A DNA stretch of 64,000 nucleotides from an uncultured Mucispirillum sp. GTDB lineage: Bacteria > Chrysiogenota > Deferribacteres > Deferribacterales > Mucispirillaceae. The DNA lies in NCBI GenBank assembly GCA_944324465.1, contig CALUWI010000014.1, forward strand, positions 1 through 64,000, in the 5' to 3' direction. The notes beneath the pieces were generated by a model. It worked only from the letters and a program-made list of their open reading frames with translations. It was not told the origin of the DNA and searched no databases. Positions 41,113-48,457 of this stretch are shown here, in pieces (position 1 is the first letter of the stretch; each line of letters opens with the position of its first letter). The translations under genes were made by a program, and so were the position numbers.

Positions 41113-42678
41113 ATGGATAATAAAAAAGAGCAGGAACGAGCAGAACTACATAAAATAATATGGAATATTGCCGATGATTTGCGAGGCACTGTTGATGGCT
41201 GGGATTTTAAGCAGTATGTATTAGGAATGCTTTTTTATAGATATATATCTGAGAATATAACAGAATATATAAATAAAATAGAGCATGAAGCAGAAAATTA
41301 TAGATTTGATTATAAAAATTTTTCTGATGATGAAATAAATGATGAAATAAGAAATGATTTAATTGATACAATAGGTTATTTTATTAAACCAAGCCAGCTT
41401 TTTTATAATGTGTATATAAATGCAAAAAATGATGAAAATCTAAATGAGACTTTAAGTAGTGTTTTTAAGGAGATTGAAAATTCTGCAATAGGCAGCAAAA
41501 GTGAAGATAATTTTAAAGGTTTATTTGATGATTTTGATGTAAACAGTAAAAAACTAGGTGCATCAGTTAAAGAAAGGGTTGAGAAATTAAATAAAATAAT
41601 GAAAGGTATAGCTTCTATGAATTTAGGTAGCTATGGAGAAAATACAATAGATATTTTTGGTGATGCTTATGAATTTTTAATGGGTATGTATGCATCAAAT
41701 GCTGGTAAAAGTGGTGGTGAGTATTACACACCACAGGAAGTATCAGAGCTTTTAACAAGATTAACTTTGATAGGTAAAAAAGAAGTAAATAAAGTATATG
41801 ACCCAGCTTGTGGTAGTGGTTCTTTATTATTAAAATATGCAAAAATTTTAGGACATAGTAATGTGCGAATAGGTTTTTTTGGACAGGAAACCAATATAAC
41901 AACATATAACTTATGCCGTATTAATATGTTTTTGCATAATATACCTTATGATAAATTTAATATAGCCCATGGGGATACATTAACTAACCCGCAGCATGAT
42001 GATTTTGAGCCTTTTGAAGCAATAGTTTCTAATCCGCCTTATTCTACAAAATGGAAAGGTGATGATGACCCTGTGCTGATTAATGACCATAGGTATTCAC
42101 CAGCTGGTGTGTTAGCCCCTAAATCAAAAGCAGATTTTGCTTTTATAATGCACAGCCTTTCTTGGCTTGCAGGCAGTGGCACAGCTGCAATAGTGTGTTT
42201 TCCGGGTATTTTTTACCGTGGCGGAGCAGAACAGAAAATACGAAAATATTTAGTTGATAATAACTTTATTGATTGCATTATACAGATGCCGGAAAATCTT
42301 TTTTACGGCACTTCTATTGCAACCTGTGTAATGGTGCTAAAAAAGAATAAACAAGATAGTAGTATATTTTTTATAAATGCATCAAAAGAATTTGTAAAAG
42401 TTACAAATAATAATAAATTAACACAGGATAATATCAATAATATTTTAAAATACTATGAAGAAAGAAGAGATGTAGAATATATTTCATCACTTGTAAAGTA
42501 TGAGAAAGTTGTAGAAGAAAATTATAATTTATCAGTAAATACTTATGTGGAAATAGAAGATACAAGAGAAAAAATAGATATAAATATATTAAATAAAGAG
42601 ATAGACGAAATAGTAAAAAAACAACAGGTGTTAAGGGATAATATTGATAAAATAGTTGTAGAACTTGGAGATATTTAA
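41113..42678 (+). CDS. hsdM: Type I restriction-modification methyltransferase subunit HsdM
   Basis: A 521-residue N6-adenine methylase: helical N-terminal domain, SAM motif DPACGSGSLLL (from residue 230), catalytic NPPYS (N307), and a helical C-terminus for HsdS contact. It methylates adenines in the site chosen by HsdS. AAGGAGGG precedes the ATG. It overlaps rhuM by one base, so hsdM-rhuM-hsdS form an operon. Together with the ELTA repeats in hsdS this points to a type IC-like (EcoR124-family) system. Confidence 0.96.
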   Translation: MDNKKEQERAELHKIIWNIADDLRGTVDGWDFKQYVLGMLFYRYISENITEYINKIEHEAENYRFDYKNFSDDEINDEIRNDLIDTIGYFIKPSQLFYNVYINAKNDENLNETLSSVFKEIENSAIGSKSEDNFKGLFDDFDVNSKKLGASVKERVEKLNKIMKGIASMNLGSYGENTIDIFGDAYEFLMGMYASNAGKSGGEYYTPQEVSELLTRLTLIGKKEVNKVYDPACGSGSLLLKYAKILGHSNVRIGFFGQETNITTYNLCRINMFLHNIPYDKFNIAHGDTLTNPQHDDFEPFEAIVSNPPYSTKWKGDDDPVLINDHRYSPAGVLAPKSKADFAFIMHSLSWLAGSGTAAIVCFPGIFYRGGAEQKIRKYLVDNNFIDCIIQMPENLFYGTSIATCVMVLKKNKQDSSIFFINASKEFVKVTNNNKLTQDNINNILKYYEERRDVEYISSLVKYEKVVEENYNLSVNTYVEIEDTREKIDINILNKEIDEIVKKQQVLRDNIDKIVVELGDI

Positions 42679-43688
42679 TGACACCAGTGGAATTTATATT
42701 ATATAAAGATATATCAGAAAGTATATCGGTAGATGTAGTTATAAAAAATGAAACGCTATGGCTTACCCAAAAATCTATGGCGGAATTATTTGGAGTTGAT
42801 TTATCTACAATAGCTAGACATTTAAAAAATATATTTTCAGAAGGCGAATTAACAGAAGAACTGGTTATTGCAAAAATTGCAATAACCACTCAACATGGAG
42901 CAATAGCAGGAAAAGAGCAGACAAGGCAGGTAAATTTTTATAATCTTGATGCTGTAATTTCTGTTGGTTATCGTGTAAATTCATCAAAAGCCACTAAATT
43001 TAGAATATGGGCAACTGGTGTTCTAAAAGAGTTTATACAGAAAGGTTTTGTTTTAGATGATGAAAGATTAAAGCAGGGTAAAACTGTTTTTGGTAAAGAT
43101 TATTTTAAAGAACTTTTAGAAAGAGTTCGCTCAATAAGAGCAAGTGAAAGAAGAATATGGCAGCAGATAACAGATATTTTTGCAGAATGTTCAATAGATT
43201 ATAATAAAAATTCTAATATAACAAAAGAATTTTTTGCAACTATTCAAAATAAATTTCACTATGCAATTACTCATCAAACAGCTGCAGAAATAATATATAA
43301 TAATGCTGACAGCAAAAAAGAAAATATGGGGCTTACAACTTGGAAAAATGCACCTGATGGAAGAATATTAAAATCAGATGTATTGATTGCTAAAAATTAT
43401 TTATCAGAAAAAGAAATAAGACAGCTGGAAAGAGCAGTAACTGGTTATTTTGATTATATTGAAGATTTAATAGAGCGGGAAAATACTTTTACAATGGAAG
43501 AATTTTTTGCAAGTGTATCAGAATTTTTAAATTTTAGAAGATATGAAATATTGCATGATAAGGGAAGTATATCAATGGATAAGGCAAAAGATAAAGCAGA
43601 GCAGGAATATAATGTTTTTAATAAACATCAGAAAATTAATTCTGATTTTGATAAATTCAGCCAGAAACTGCTGAAAGATAAGGATTAA
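42678..43688 (+). CDS. rhuM: RhuM family protein within the hsd operon
   Basis: A 336-residue RhuM-family protein. Near the N-terminus a helix-turn-helix-like segment (LWLTQKSMAELFGVDLSTIARHLKNIF) is followed by the family motif FYNLDAVISVGYRVNSSKATKFRIWAT (given in part) and a C-terminal FYNxD/Fic-DOC-partner-like region. RhuM was named from a Salmonella pathogenicity island, but its activity is not established. Homologues commonly sit between hsdM and hsdS, as here, with one-base overlap and 3-base spacing. It may modulate the restriction system or be an associated defence factor. Confidence 0.88.
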   Translation: MTPVEFILYKDISESISVDVVIKNETLWLTQKSMAELFGVDLSTIARHLKNIFSEGELTEELVIAKIAITTQHGAIAGKEQTRQVNFYNLDAVISVGYRVNSSKATKFRIWATGVLKEFIQKGFVLDDERLKQGKTVFGKDYFKELLERVRSIRASERRIWQQITDIFAECSIDYNKNSNITKEFFATIQNKFHYAITHQTAAEIIYNNADSKKENMGLTTWKNAPDGRILKSDVLIAKNYLSEKEIRQLERAVTGYFDYIEDLIERENTFTMEEFFASVSEFLNFRRYEILHDKGSISMDKAKDKAEQEYNVFNKHQKINSDFDKFSQKLLKDKD

Positions 43689-43691
43689 ACA

Positions 43692-44879
43692 ATGAATAAA
43701 ATAGAAAAAATGATAAAAGAATTATGCCCTAACGGAGTAGAATGGAAGAATATTACAGATATTGCAGACACTTTTATTGGATTAGTGACTACAATGACAA
43801 AATATTATTCTAATACTGGAACACCATTGATATTTAATTCATCAATTAAAGAAAATAAGTTTGTTTTTAATAAAATGATATTTTTAGATACTAAATTTGC
43901 AATGAAACATAAAAATAAAATGCATAAAAAAGGTGATATTATAACAGTTCATACTGGAGATGTAGGAACATCTGCAATTATTGATGATTTATTGGATGGA
44001 AGTCTTGGTTTTGCAACAATAGTCAGCAGAATAAAAAATAATTCAAAAGTAGATAATAAGTATGTATGTTATTTTCTAAACTCTGGTATAGCAAAATTTC
44101 AAATATATAATAGAATAAAAGGCGATAGGGACAATCTTAATTTAAAAGATTTTAATCAAATTCTTATCCCTATTCCGCCGCTTGCGGTGCAAGCGGAAAT
44201 TGTCAAGATACTTGACAATTTTACCGAGCTAACCGCCGAGCTAACCGCCGAGCTAACCGCCGAGCTAACCGCTAGAAAAAAGCAGTATGAATATTACAGA
44301 GATAAACTTTTATCTCTTGATAACATTCTAAAACGGGGGGGGGTAACTAAAAAATTAGGGGAAGTGTGTGAGTTTGTAGTAGGTGGAGATATACCTAAAA
44401 ATAAAATTTCTAAACATAAAACAGATAATTATAATATTCCTGTTTATAGTAACGGAACAGATAAAAATATGTTGTATGGATACACAGGTATAGCAAAAAT
44501 AAATAGAAAATGTGTTTCTATCTCTGCTAGGGGAACGATAGGATACTGTCATTTGCATGTAACTCCTTTTTATCCTATTGTTAGGTTAATATGTGCTATT
44601 CCAAATGAAAATATTTTAATAGCAGATTATTTAAAATATAGTTTAGATTGTATTAACATAAAAGGGACTAATTCTGGCATTCCACAATTGACTACACCAA
44701 TGGTTAATAATATCCAAATCCCTATTCCACCCCTTGAAGTGCAGCAAGAGATAGTTGATATATTAGATAAATTTGAAAGTATGTGTAATAGTTTAACAGA
44801 AGGCTTGCCAGCAGAGATTGAAGCGAGAAAAAAGCAATATGAATATTATAGGGATAAGTTATTAAGTTTTACAAATTAA
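43692..44879 (+). CDS. hsdS: Type I specificity subunit HsdS with two slippage elements
   Basis: A 395-residue HsdS with two target-recognition domains (roughly residues 15-150 and 220-350). Each is followed by a conserved helical spacer ending in RKKQYEYYRDKLLS. The first spacer holds four ELTA units (residues 179-194) coded by perfect 12-bp repeats. Right after it lie residues R215-G216-G217 coded by a run of nine G. Loss or gain of one G gives a stop at once (TAA) or after two further codons, leaving a one-domain protein of about 217-219 residues. Repeat-number change would alter the spacing between the half-sites, as in EcoR124I versus EcoR124II. As sequenced the gene is full length. Confidence 0.95.
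   Translation: MNKIEKMIKELCPNGVEWKNITDIADTFIGLVTTMTKYYSNTGTPLIFNSSIKENKFVFNKMIFLDTKFAMKHKNKMHKKGDIITVHTGDVGTSAIIDDLLDGSLGFATIVSRIKNNSKVDNKYVCYFLNSGIAKFQIYNRIKGDRDNLNLKDFNQILIPIPPLAVQAEIVKILDNFTELTAELTAELTAELTARKKQYEYYRDKLLSLDNILKRGGVTKKLGEVCEFVVGGDIPKNKISKHKTDNYNIPVYSNGTDKNMLYGYTGIAKINRKCVSISARGTIGYCHLHVTPFYPIVRLICAIPNENILIADYLKYSLDCINIKGTNSGIPQLTTPMVNNIQIPIPPLEVQQEIVDILDKFESMCNSLTEGLPAEIEARKKQYEYYRDKLLSFTN
44199..44221. repeat. Inverted repeat in hsdS spacer
   Basis: AATTGTCAAG and CTTGACAATT are perfect 10-base arms around ATA, just before the 12-bp repeats. It encodes EIVKILDNF. Together with the GC-rich repeats this patch looks foreign to the surrounding base composition. Confidence 0.6.
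44226..44273 (+). repeat. Four 12-bp tandem repeats (ELTA) in hsdS
   Basis: GAGCTAACCGCC occurs four times in a row (last copy ends in T). The unit is 8/12 G+C in an AT-rich gene. Unit length is a multiple of three, so copy-number change lengthens the spacer by four residues without a frameshift. Confidence 0.95.
44335..44343 (+). repeat. Run of nine G in hsdS
   Basis: A homopolymer at codons 215-218. Nine G keeps the frame open; eight G gives an immediate TAA, ten G gives a stop two codons later. A phase-variation tract like the one in the radical SAM gene. Confidence 0.9.
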
Positions 44880-44950
44880 AAGGCAAGCCTGATTAAAGGG
44901 CAGGAAGCCCGCCTTTAGTAAGCACCTAAACGAATTTATTTCGTAGGTGC
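44802..44950 (+). repeat. 149-bp direct repeat, first copy (hsdS 3' end)
   Basis: The last 78 bases of hsdS plus downstream DNA, identical over 149 bases to 44996-45144 (period 194). Similarity continues with two mismatches for about 20 more bases. Confidence 0.9.
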
Positions 44951-44955
44951 ATTTG

Positions 44956-44984
44956 AATAAAAAGTCTAGGATGGACTTTTTATT
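44956..44984. repeat. Hairpin with 7-nt loop (empty-site form)
   Basis: AATAAAAAGTC and GACTTTTTATT, 11-base perfect arms, loop TAGGATG. Compare 45150-45241. Confidence 0.8.
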
Positions 44985-44995
44985 ATGGATAATAG

Positions 44996-45073
44996 GGCTT
45001 GCCAGCAGAGATTGAAGCGAGAAAAAAGCAATATGAATATTATAGGGATAAGTTATTAAGTTTTACAAATTAA
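44996..45073 (+). pseudogene. Duplicated 3' fragment of hsdS
   Basis: A 78-base copy of the hsdS end, coding LPAEIEARKKQYEYYRDKLL plus four residues and a stop. It has no start or recognition domain. It arises from the 149-bp duplication and could act as homology for recombination with another hsdS cassette. Confidence 0.85.
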
Positions 45074-45144
45074 AAGGCAAGCCTGATTAAAGGGCAGGAA
45101 GCCCGCCTTTAGTAAGCACCTAAACGAATTTATTTCGTAGGTGC
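44996..45144 (+). repeat. 149-bp direct repeat, second copy
   Basis: Perfect match of 44802-44950. The downstream copy of the next hairpin differs from the first by a 63-base expansion of its loop. Confidence 0.9.
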
Positions 45145-45149
45145 GTCTG

Positions 45150-45241
45150 AATAAAAAGTCTAGGACGAGCTTGCGAGGACTGCCAAATTCCCGAGTGAGT
45201 AGCGAGGAATTAGAATTTGCACAGGCTTAGGACTTTTTATT
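45150..45241. repeat. Same hairpin with 70-nt loop containing a module (filled-site form)
   Basis: The identical 11-base arms (45150-45160 and 45231-45241) enclose 70 instead of 7 bases. The added DNA includes GAGGAC, arms CAAATTC/GAATTTG (45184-45190, 45213-45219) and the 22-base core also found at 14.3, 14.4 and 31.6 kb. Confidence 0.8.
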
Positions 45242-45287
45242 ATAGATAAAAAGATAAGCTATTAAGTTTTGAACACAATTAAACATA

Positions 45288-45451: not shown

Positions 45452-48400
45452 ATGGATTACGATATTTTATATGAAACAGATTATGAAACAGTTGTTGCAA
45501 AATATGAAGATAAAAGAACAGGTAATAAATCTTATCAGTCTGAAAAAGAGCTTGAAATAGAATTAATAGAAAATTTAAAAAAACTGGGCTATGAATATAT
45601 TAATATAAAAAATGAAAAAGAGCTTATTGATAATTTTAAAAACCAGCTTGAAAGACTGAATAATTATAAATTTGAGAATGATGAATGGAATATATTTTTT
45701 AAAAAAGAGATACAAAAAGAAGGTGTTTTAGAAAAAGCAAAAATAATACATAATGATGACTGTCTAACAACAACTATTAATAATAAAGGAATATCCAAAA
45801 ATATTAAACTAATAGACAAAAGTAATATTCATGAAAATAAATTACAGGTTATAAACCAATACAGAGAAGAGAAAGGGACATATAAATCACGATACGATGT
45901 AACAATTTTAATTAATGGGCTTCCACTTATACATATTGAACTTAAAAGGAGAGGGGTTGCATTAGAGCAGGCTTTTAATCAGATTACTAGATATCAGCGA
46001 AATAGTTTTTGGGCGGGAAGCTCATTATTTGAATTTGTGCAGATATTTGTTATATCAAATGGAACTCATACAAAATATTATTCAAATACCACAAGGCTTA
46101 ATAGTGCAAATCATCATAAAAAAACAAATAATACTTTTGAGTTTACTATATTTTTTGCAGATGCAGAAAATAGGCGGATAACTGATTTAGTAAATTTTAC
46201 AAATTACTTTTTTGCCCGTCATACTATATTAAATATTCTAACTAAATATTGTGTATTAACTGAAGATAATAATCTTTTAGTAATGCGACCTTATCAAATT
46301 GTGGCTTGTGAAAGAATATTAAATAAAATAAAATATGCAGAAAATAAAAATATATATGGTAAAATAGAAGCAGGGGGATATATTTGGCATACAACAGGAA
46401 GTGGAAAAACTTTAACTTCTTTTAAAACATCACTGCTAGCTTCAAAAACAGATTATATTGATAAAGTGCTTTTTGTAGTAGATAGAAAAGATTTAGATTA
46501 TCAGACAATAAAAGAATATGAAAAATATAAAAAGGGCTGTGTATCATCTAATAAAAGCACTAAGATTTTGCAAGAACAAATAGAAAATGATAATAAAATT
46601 ATAGTTACAACTATTCAAAAGCTTTCTACATTTATTAAAAAAAATAAAGTTCATAATATTTATAATAAAAAAGTAGTTATTATATTTGATGAATGCCACA
46701 GGTCTCAGTTTGGAGAAATGCATACAAATATAACTAAACATTTTAAAAAATACGCTATATTTGGCTTTACTGGCACTCCTATTTTTAAAGAAAATGCGTC
46801 AAATATTAATAAACTTCAAGGAAAAACCACACCACAGGTATTTGGCGATAAACTGCATACTTATACAATAGTAGATGCAATACATGATGAAACTGTTCTT
46901 CCTTTTAAAGTAGAATATCATAATACTTTTAAAAATAAAGATGAAATAGAAGATAAAAAAGTGCCAGCTATTAATAAAGAAGAAGTTTTTTTATATGAAA
47001 AAAGGCTTACTAATATAGTAGCTTATATATTGCAAAATTTTGATATTAAAACAAAAAGAAATAGTTTGTATAACTTATCTGGAAAAAGAGTAAATGGGTT
47101 TAATTCAATATTAGCAGTAAGCAGTATTGAAGCAGCCATAAAATATTATAATATTTTTAAAAAATTAAATACAGGTAGTGAACTATTAAGAATTGCTACA
47201 ATATTTAGCTTTAACCCTAATGAAGAAGAAAATGGATATATTGATGATGAAAGCATAGATACAGAAAATCTTGATGTAGGCAGTAGAGAGTTTTTAGATA
47301 GTGCAATAGCTGATTATAATAATATATTTAATACATCTTTTGACACAAGCAGCGAAAAATTTGAAAATTATTATAAAGATATTTCTCAAAGAATGAAAAA
47401 TAAAGAGATTGATTTATTAATAGTTGTAAATATGTTTTTAACTGGGTTTGATGCTAAAACATTAAATACCTTGTGGGTAGATAAAAATTTAAAATATCAT
47501 TCATTGATTCAGGCTTTTTCAAGAACTAATAGAATATTAAATTCAGTAAAAACTTTTGGAAATATAATATGTTTTAGAAATCTTGTAAAAGATGTAGAAA
47601 ATGCCATTGCTTTATTTGGTAATAAAGATGCTGAAAATATTGTATTATTAAAAAGTTTTAACAGCTATTTTTATGGATATGATGAAAATGGGGAACATAT
47701 TTTTGGATATATTGATTATCTAAATAAACTTTATGATAAATACCCACTAAATAGTGAAATTATAACAGAACAAGATATAAAAGAATTTATTAAATTATTT
47801 GGTGTAATTTTAAAATTTAGAAATATATTATCAACTTTTGAAGAATTTATAGTAAATGACCCATTTATAAAAGAAAATAAAGAAAGAGATTTACAAGATT
47901 ATCAAAGTATATATATTGATTTATACAGTAAATTTGTAAAAAAAGAAGAAAGTGAGAAAGAAAGTATATTAGATGATATAGTATTTGAAATAGAGCTTAT
48001 TAAACAGGTGGAAGTAAATATTGATTATATTTTAAAACTTGTTATGCAGTATTTATTAAATAATAAAAAAGATGAAGAGCTTTCTGTAAAAATTTATAAA
48101 ACAATAGATTCTACTATACAATTAAGAAACAAAAAGGAGCTGATAGAACAGTTTATTAATTCTACACATATTGAAAGTGAAGAAGATGGCTATATCCGTT
48201 GGCAAAACTATATAGAAAATGAAAAAGAGAAAGAAATTACAAATATAATAAATGAAGAAAAACTAAAAGAAGAAGAAACTAAAACTTTTATTAATAATGC
48301 TTTTAGAGATGGAGAAATAAAAACAAGTGGTGTTGATTTTGATAAACTGCTACCACCAATTTCAAGGTTTAGTAAAACAGAAAATCGGCAGGAAAAGAAA

Positions 48401-48457
48401 AATAAAATTGCTGAAAAATTAACAACATTTTTTGAAAAGTTTTTCAATATCAGTTAA
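45452..48457 (+). CDS. hsdR: Type I restriction endonuclease subunit HsdR
   Basis: A 1001-residue HsdR. The N-terminal PD-ExK nuclease shows YDVTILINGLPLIHIELKRRG (E163, K165 region) and QITRYQRNSFW. Then comes a superfamily 2 motor with Walker A TTGSGKTLTSF (from ~314), DECH (413-416), FGFTGTP, and the motif VI stretch LIQAFSRTNRI. The C-terminal helical domain binds HsdM/HsdS. It cleaves DNA unmethylated at the HsdS site after translocation. Complete and uninterrupted, so restriction can be active. AAGGA precedes the ATG. Confidence 0.96.
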   Translation: MDYDILYETDYETVVAKYEDKRTGNKSYQSEKELEIELIENLKKLGYEYINIKNEKELIDNFKNQLERLNNYKFENDEWNIFFKKEIQKEGVLEKAKIIHNDDCLTTTINNKGISKNIKLIDKSNIHENKLQVINQYREEKGTYKSRYDVTILINGLPLIHIELKRRGVALEQAFNQITRYQRNSFWAGSSLFEFVQIFVISNGTHTKYYSNTTRLNSANHHKKTNNTFEFTIFFADAENRRITDLVNFTNYFFARHTILNILTKYCVLTEDNNLLVMRPYQIVACERILNKIKYAENKNIYGKIEAGGYIWHTTGSGKTLTSFKTSLLASKTDYIDKVLFVVDRKDLDYQTIKEYEKYKKGCVSSNKSTKILQEQIENDNKIIVTTIQKLSTFIKKNKVHNIYNKKVVIIFDECHRSQFGEMHTNITKHFKKYAIFGFTGTPIFKENASNINKLQGKTTPQVFGDKLHTYTIVDAIHDETVLPFKVEYHNTFKNKDEIEDKKVPAINKEEVFLYEKRLTNIVAYILQNFDIKTKRNSLYNLSGKRVNGFNSILAVSSIEAAIKYYNIFKKLNTGSELLRIATIFSFNPNEEENGYIDDESIDTENLDVGSREFLDSAIADYNNIFNTSFDTSSEKFENYYKDISQRMKNKEIDLLIVVNMFLTGFDAKTLNTLWVDKNLKYHSLIQAFSRTNRILNSVKTFGNIICFRNLVKDVENAIALFGNKDAENIVLLKSFNSYFYGYDENGEHIFGYIDYLNKLYDKYPLNSEIITEQDIKEFIKLFGVILKFRNILSTFEEFIVNDPFIKENKERDLQDYQSIYIDLYSKFVKKEESEKESILDDIVFEIELIKQVEVNIDYILKLVMQYLLNNKKDEELSVKIYKTIDSTIQLRNKKELIEQFINSTHIESEEDGYIRWQNYIENEKEKEITNIINEEKLKEEETKTFINNAFRDGEIKTSGVDFDKLLPPISRFSKTENRQEKKNKIAEKLTTFFEKFFNIS

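Follow-up and report, generated by a model that had tools for sequence, protein, structure and literature searches.

The hsdS gene of an uncultured Mucispirillum species is, in all likelihood, an intact Type IC specificity gene that carries two independent slippage switches: a 12-bp tandem repeat inside the helix between its two target recognition domains (TRDs) and a run of nine Gs in the linker that leads into the second of them (Table 1). The gene lies in a 64,000-nucleotide stretch of DNA, which we analyzed as a whole and call the window.

A Type IC specificity gene with two repeat tracts

Judged by its genes, the locus is an intact Type IC (EcoR124 family) restriction-modification system. 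It contains intact hsdM, hsdS and hsdR and is flanked by radA and fabI, as read from the neighboring proteins. HsdR has an EcoR124-type C-terminal domain (EcoR124_C, PF12008, 9.5e-57) and a T1R_D3-like match (1.9e-60). HsdS contains two Methylase_S stretches (PF01420, E 6.5e-42), and its best PDB sequence match is the HsdS of EcoR124II (7bst, E 7.8e-38). It also has two similar conserved regions as well as TAEL-type repeats. The distal conserved region repeats the central one directly (D2, 83% over 42 nt), and an alignment of 31 sequences places a QYEYYRD-type motif in both. Elsewhere in the genome, on a different contig, there is a single further HsdS match, at 33% identity. In each of the three Mucispirillum copies of the locus, a RhuM-family gene separates hsdM from hsdS.

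Table 1. Positions in the window of the hsd genes and of the features of hsdS
Feature	Position	Strand	Basis
hsdM, methyltransferase subunit, 521 aa, intact	41113..42678	+	N6_Mtase 3.6e-115; HsdM_N 2.3e-21; TIGR00497 hsdM 742 bits
RhuM-family gene, 336 aa, between hsdM and hsdS	42678..43688	+	PF13310 1.1e-104; PADLOC candidate defense PDC-S05
hsdS, specificity subunit, 395 aa in the 9-G state	43692..44879	+	PF01420 twice
First target recognition domain, about residues 17-155	43740..44156	+	Pfam stretch 16-193 in half protein; model secondary structure
Central conserved region helix, residues 164-206, holds the repeat	44181..44309	+	AlphaFold2 model, pLDDT 85.5
12-bp tandem repeat, putative spacer switch	44224..44272	+	TRF: period 12, 4.1 copies, 100%, score 98
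G9 tract, codes Gly-Gly of the inter-domain linker	44335..44343	+	Frames at 8, 9 and 10 G; linker coil 215-217 in model
Second target recognition domain, about residues 218-340	44343..44711	+	Pfam stretch 219-378; model
Distal conserved region helices, residues 348-390	44733..44861	+	Model; direct repeat D2 with central region
Tandem duplication, period 194, of hsdS 3' end and intergenic DNA, non-coding relic	44802..45172	+	TRF 44802-45165, 98%
hsdR, restriction/translocase subunit, 1001 aa, intact	45452..48457	+	EcoR124_C, T1R_D3-like, HSDR_N; TIGR00348

The preliminary description had noticed four 12-bp repeats coding for ELTA, and the perfect copies found by TRF bear this out. The unit, CCGAGCTAACCG, is base-identical throughout the array and codes for (ELTA)n, which in the counting used for EcoR124 amounts to three TAEL plus TA. 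According to the alignment, this is one TAEL more than in the EcoR124 chain of 7bst, and by analogy with EcoR124 the present allele would belong to the longer-spacer class. Only one other exact 12-mer tandem, of two copies, occurs in the 64-kb window.

Only two G/C runs of at least 6 are found in the window, the hsdS tract among them, and both are at least 9 long, while a first-order Markov model predicts 0.016 runs of at least 9 in 64 kb. Moving the tract to 8 Gs makes the frame end in RGG-stop, and 10 Gs make it end in RGGGN-stop, so the protein is cut as had been proposed, with a stop within two codons and with one recognition domain and the helix left. Lengths of 9±3n give the full-length protein again. 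The two tracts are not in adjacent codons, as had been thought, but are separated by 62 nt, or about 21 codons.

An AlphaFold2 model of HsdS built from 31 homologues (mean pLDDT 85.5) places both tracts in the protein. A Foldseek search with the model retrieved known structures of HsdS, among them EcoR124 (7bst) and a Type I complex subunit (5ybb), both at probability 1.00. In the model, the long helix of residues 164-206 holds the repeat and is followed by a short helix, the Gly-Gly coil and the strand that opens the second domain. Because the repeat lies within the long helix, a change in repeat number is predicted to alter the helix that sets the distance between them. The G-run, for its part, is modeled at a position where an extra glycine is tolerable and where a stop leaves the whole domain plus the helix.

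Sister species and G-runs elsewhere in the genome

The same hsd locus occupies the same genomic site in two Mucispirillum sister species, G003 and G006; in the other Mucispirillum genomes examined, no HsdM was close to this one. In the near relative G003 (uncultured Mucispirillum sp., contig CALVEY010000008.1), the flanking genes match those of the window at 93-99% and the central region (44160-44363) at 95%, whereas neither recognition domain has a DNA match. We conclude from this contrast that the recognition domains were swapped around a switch region that was kept. The G003 gene has an identical repeat array of four units, a G9 tract and a full-length HsdS. G006, a single-contig genome, instead has G8. 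The first half of its hsdS codes for 207 aa and ends in RGG-stop, the second half is open for 200 codons in another frame, and the gene is thus split exactly as the frame prediction for G8 has it. The tetrapeptide repeat of G006 is degenerate (LSTNLQAELQA), with no exact 12-bp array, and the repeat switch is therefore not kept in all species. With one genome per species, repeat number is the same in G003 and the window, and G006 has no exact array to count.

Long G-runs are also abundant in the genome at large. It contains 33 distinct G-runs of at least 9, compared to 0.6 expected, and A/T runs of at least 8 are fewer than expected in the 64-kb window, which argues that the G-runs are being kept. 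Several of them lie in or near genes that, read from their translations, resemble glycosyltransferases and oxidoreductases, as well as a DNA methylase. This profile suggests that phase-variable genes are numerous in the genome. Several runs of at least 9 cluster on contig C9 (111-125 kb) near glycosyltransferase-like genes.

In the window itself, positions 2892-2901 form a G10 (C10 on the + strand) early in a radical SAM/SPASM gene on the minus strand (1938-2930), which adjoins LuxC- and LuxE-like genes. Because it is in frame at ten Gs, this gene is probably another phase-variable one. Elsewhere in the genome, on contig C1, an N6_N4_Mtase gene (L132:152-1790, minus strand) is cut by a G10 near its 5' end into a first frame of 99 aa and a second of 455 aa. 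It looks like a switched-off phase-variable methyltransferase, perhaps a Type III mod.

Known systems and the spread of the arrangement

The combination of a repeat and a poly-G tract in one hsdS has already been described for NgoAV, a Type IC system of Neisseria gonorrhoeae, and the Mucispirillum gene is a further example. NgoAV has tetrapeptide repeats in the central region followed by poly-G (PMC6789123, PMC9577141), and the length of its poly-G determines whether a full-length HsdS or a half of about 208 aa is made, the same design as in the window. Here, too, the poly-G follows the first conserved region, a change of one G truncates the protein after the first TRD, and a split allele exists in G006. 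The preliminary description had cited NgoAV as a precedent for the G-tract. The literature agrees and brings in the repeats as well: across 25 gonococcal strains, the methylated motif (GACN6TGC, GACN7TGC or GCAN8TGC) is associated with the number of LEAT repeats (0-3) in combination with the poly-G behind them (PMC6789123). The tract ranges from 6 to 9 Gs among 92 gonococcal strains (PMC9577141). The two systems differ in their TRDs and in their repeats, LEAT in one and TAEL in the other, the latter from a GC-rich 12-mer in a Mucispirillum genome of 32% GC. Furthermore, only the Mucispirillum locus, known here from sequence alone, has a RhuM gene between hsdM and hsdS, and the gonococcal FA1090 allele is truncated whereas the window allele is full-length.

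EcoR124I and EcoR124II share with the window gene the Type IC subunits and a 12-bp TAEL repeat in the central region, and the number of TAEL units sets the gap in their recognition sequence (2013 review, PMC3874165). Their TRDs differ from those of the window, however, and for them a G-run switch is unreported in the literature searched. The EcoDXXI half-subunit, generated by a Tn5 insertion, likewise consists of a first TRD and the conserved helix, and it acts as a homodimer on a palindrome (PMC3874165); there the truncation is an experimental or transposon-made one, whereas in the window it would be a reversible frame change at the G-run. The same review states that truncated EcoDXXI and NgoAV subunits both read palindromes. 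Inverting hsdS loci such as pneumococcal SpnIII also switch Type I specificity while keeping activity. The window locus is unlike those: it lacks a second hsdS, long inverted repeats and a recombinase gene. We accordingly rule out an inverting (shufflon-type) locus, since no second hsdS is nearby and long inverted repeats are absent.

To see how common the arrangement is, we scanned about 85,000 species genomes, one per species, for G-runs of at least 7 within 8-38 nt of a QYxYYRD-type motif. The scan returned 94 stretches with such a run behind the HsdS helix motif, from dozens of species in many phyla, and it undercounts because the pattern demands a particular motif and at least 7 Gs. After we added the window and G006 and removed three genes with the run behind the stop and the cases in the second conserved region, 88 CR1-type hsdS genes with at least 7 Gs remained. 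Fifty-six are in the fused phase and 27 are split; the other 5 could not be assigned, mostly at contig ends. Downstream decay was seen in none of the 27 split genes, a class that is defined by an open second frame and hence biased toward the argument for reversibility. At least two exact 12-bp tandem units precede the run in 52 of the 81 genes with enough upstream sequence, and the double switch is therefore a widespread arrangement. In REBASE, about 10% of the Type I systems have simple repeats (PMC7394358). In 58% of the G-run genes, both other frames reach a stop no more than about 9 codons from the tract, compared to 25% at random positions in the same reading frames. This enrichment is suggestive, and since the linker is a special place it is no proof.

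Several genes in the scan depart from the common form. L028, L031 and L097 are three hsdS genes of one Desulfovibrionaceae MAG in which a G7 lies just behind the stop codon, outside the gene. In a Treponema MAG, L063:2519-4288 (plus strand) codes for a 590-aa HsdS with three Methylase_S stretches and with G9 and G10 after its first and second conserved regions, respectively. Three recognition modules with two poly-G joints also occur in L053 and L080, both on minus strands, and in L080 a G8 separates the first module from the rest. In L042 and L016, a third module is in another frame, behind a G8/G9 tract. We found no description of a three-module HsdS with two poly-G joints in the literature searched. 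Finally, HsdS ORFs of about 600-690 aa stand behind poly-G in L065:1777-3843 (plus strand), L077, L094 and L105, and the L065 protein has three Methylase_S stretches.

Predicted consequences of slippage, and a relic at the 3' end of hsdS

If both tracts slip independently, each would alter HsdS in its own way. Gain or loss of a 12-bp unit would lengthen or shorten the central helix by four residues and, by analogy with EcoR124, change the spacing of the half-sites. One G more or fewer in the G9 tract would shift the frame at the linker, and translation would stop once the first recognition domain and its helix are made; two copies of such a half-subunit, as with EcoDXXI and NgoAV, would then assemble with two HsdM and recognize an interrupted palindrome built from the first half-site. 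The spacing effect and the activity of the half-subunit are thus expectations drawn from EcoR124, EcoDXXI and NgoAV, and repeat and G-run lengths, seen here in a single genome of the species, presumably vary within it. The division of labor first suggested for the two tracts, with spacing governed by repeat number and full or half subunits by the G-run, agrees by analogy with the anatomy of the gene, the Type IC family, the sister species and the literature.

The G-run could also be a plain ON/OFF switch, with a half-subunit that is unstable or has no activity and with methylation and restriction confined to the 9-G form. The majority of phase-variable methyltransferases work that way, the fused state is above chance in the genome scan (56 vs. 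27), and no active protein is reported from the second half of NgoAV, with many NgoAV alleles inactive (PMC9577141). Against this, truncation in the window leaves a complete TRD and the conserved helix, the same cut as in the active half-subunits of NgoAV and EcoDXXI, and we regard a plain ON/OFF switch as a serious possibility though not a probable one. That both repeats are an evolutionary residue, hardly varying in this organism, would fit the one fixed sequence in a single genome and the equal lengths in G003 (four units, G9). We consider it unlikely given the excess of long G-runs in the genome alongside the deficit of A/T runs in the window, the different G length of G006 with its predicted split and the base-identical repeat units.

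The remaining alternatives concern the G9 tract as it stands. Homopolymer slippage by the polymerase or ribosome is possible in principle, and nine Gs with stops right behind them in both other frames would yield clean half-subunits, so that one genotype could make full-length and half subunits together and have mixed specificities; we think this quite unlikely. An error in the assembled length is highly improbable: some sequencing methods are error-prone at homopolymers, but the tract recurs at the same position in three Mucispirillum genomes and dozens of unrelated species, and the nine Gs of the window keep a 395-aa protein in frame.

With two independent switches as our preferred reading, the NgoAV design extends beyond the gonococcus to Mucispirillum and, judging from the scan, to dozens of species across many phyla. 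This breadth implies that the few phase-variable hsdS genes reported as proven are likely a small sample. In one clone, such genes can produce several methylation patterns, affecting phage defense, gene uptake and possibly gene expression, and Mucispirillum offers a test ground outside the classical pathogens. A wider scheme, which we consider rather doubtful, is that the two tracts of the gene run as clocks at different speeds and, together with the other G-tract genes (including the G-run-interrupted DNA methylase), make up a multi-state methylation program in this genus of gut commensals. On a larger scale, poly-G linkers that follow the conserved HsdS helices might be a general means of joining and separating recognition modules, up to the three-module, two-G-tract HsdS of Treponema MAGs.

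Downstream of the switch region, the 3' end of hsdS is duplicated together with intergenic DNA (direct repeat D1, 177 nt, 97%). We considered whether the copy could be a spare recombination cassette and rejected the idea: it spans only about 26 codons, contains an in-frame stop and lacks a TRD, and is therefore a relic. The duplication is missing from the intergenic region of G003. In the window, an extra 18-nt copy lies at 45253, and other sites in the genome match parts of the intergenic sequence at 72-89%.
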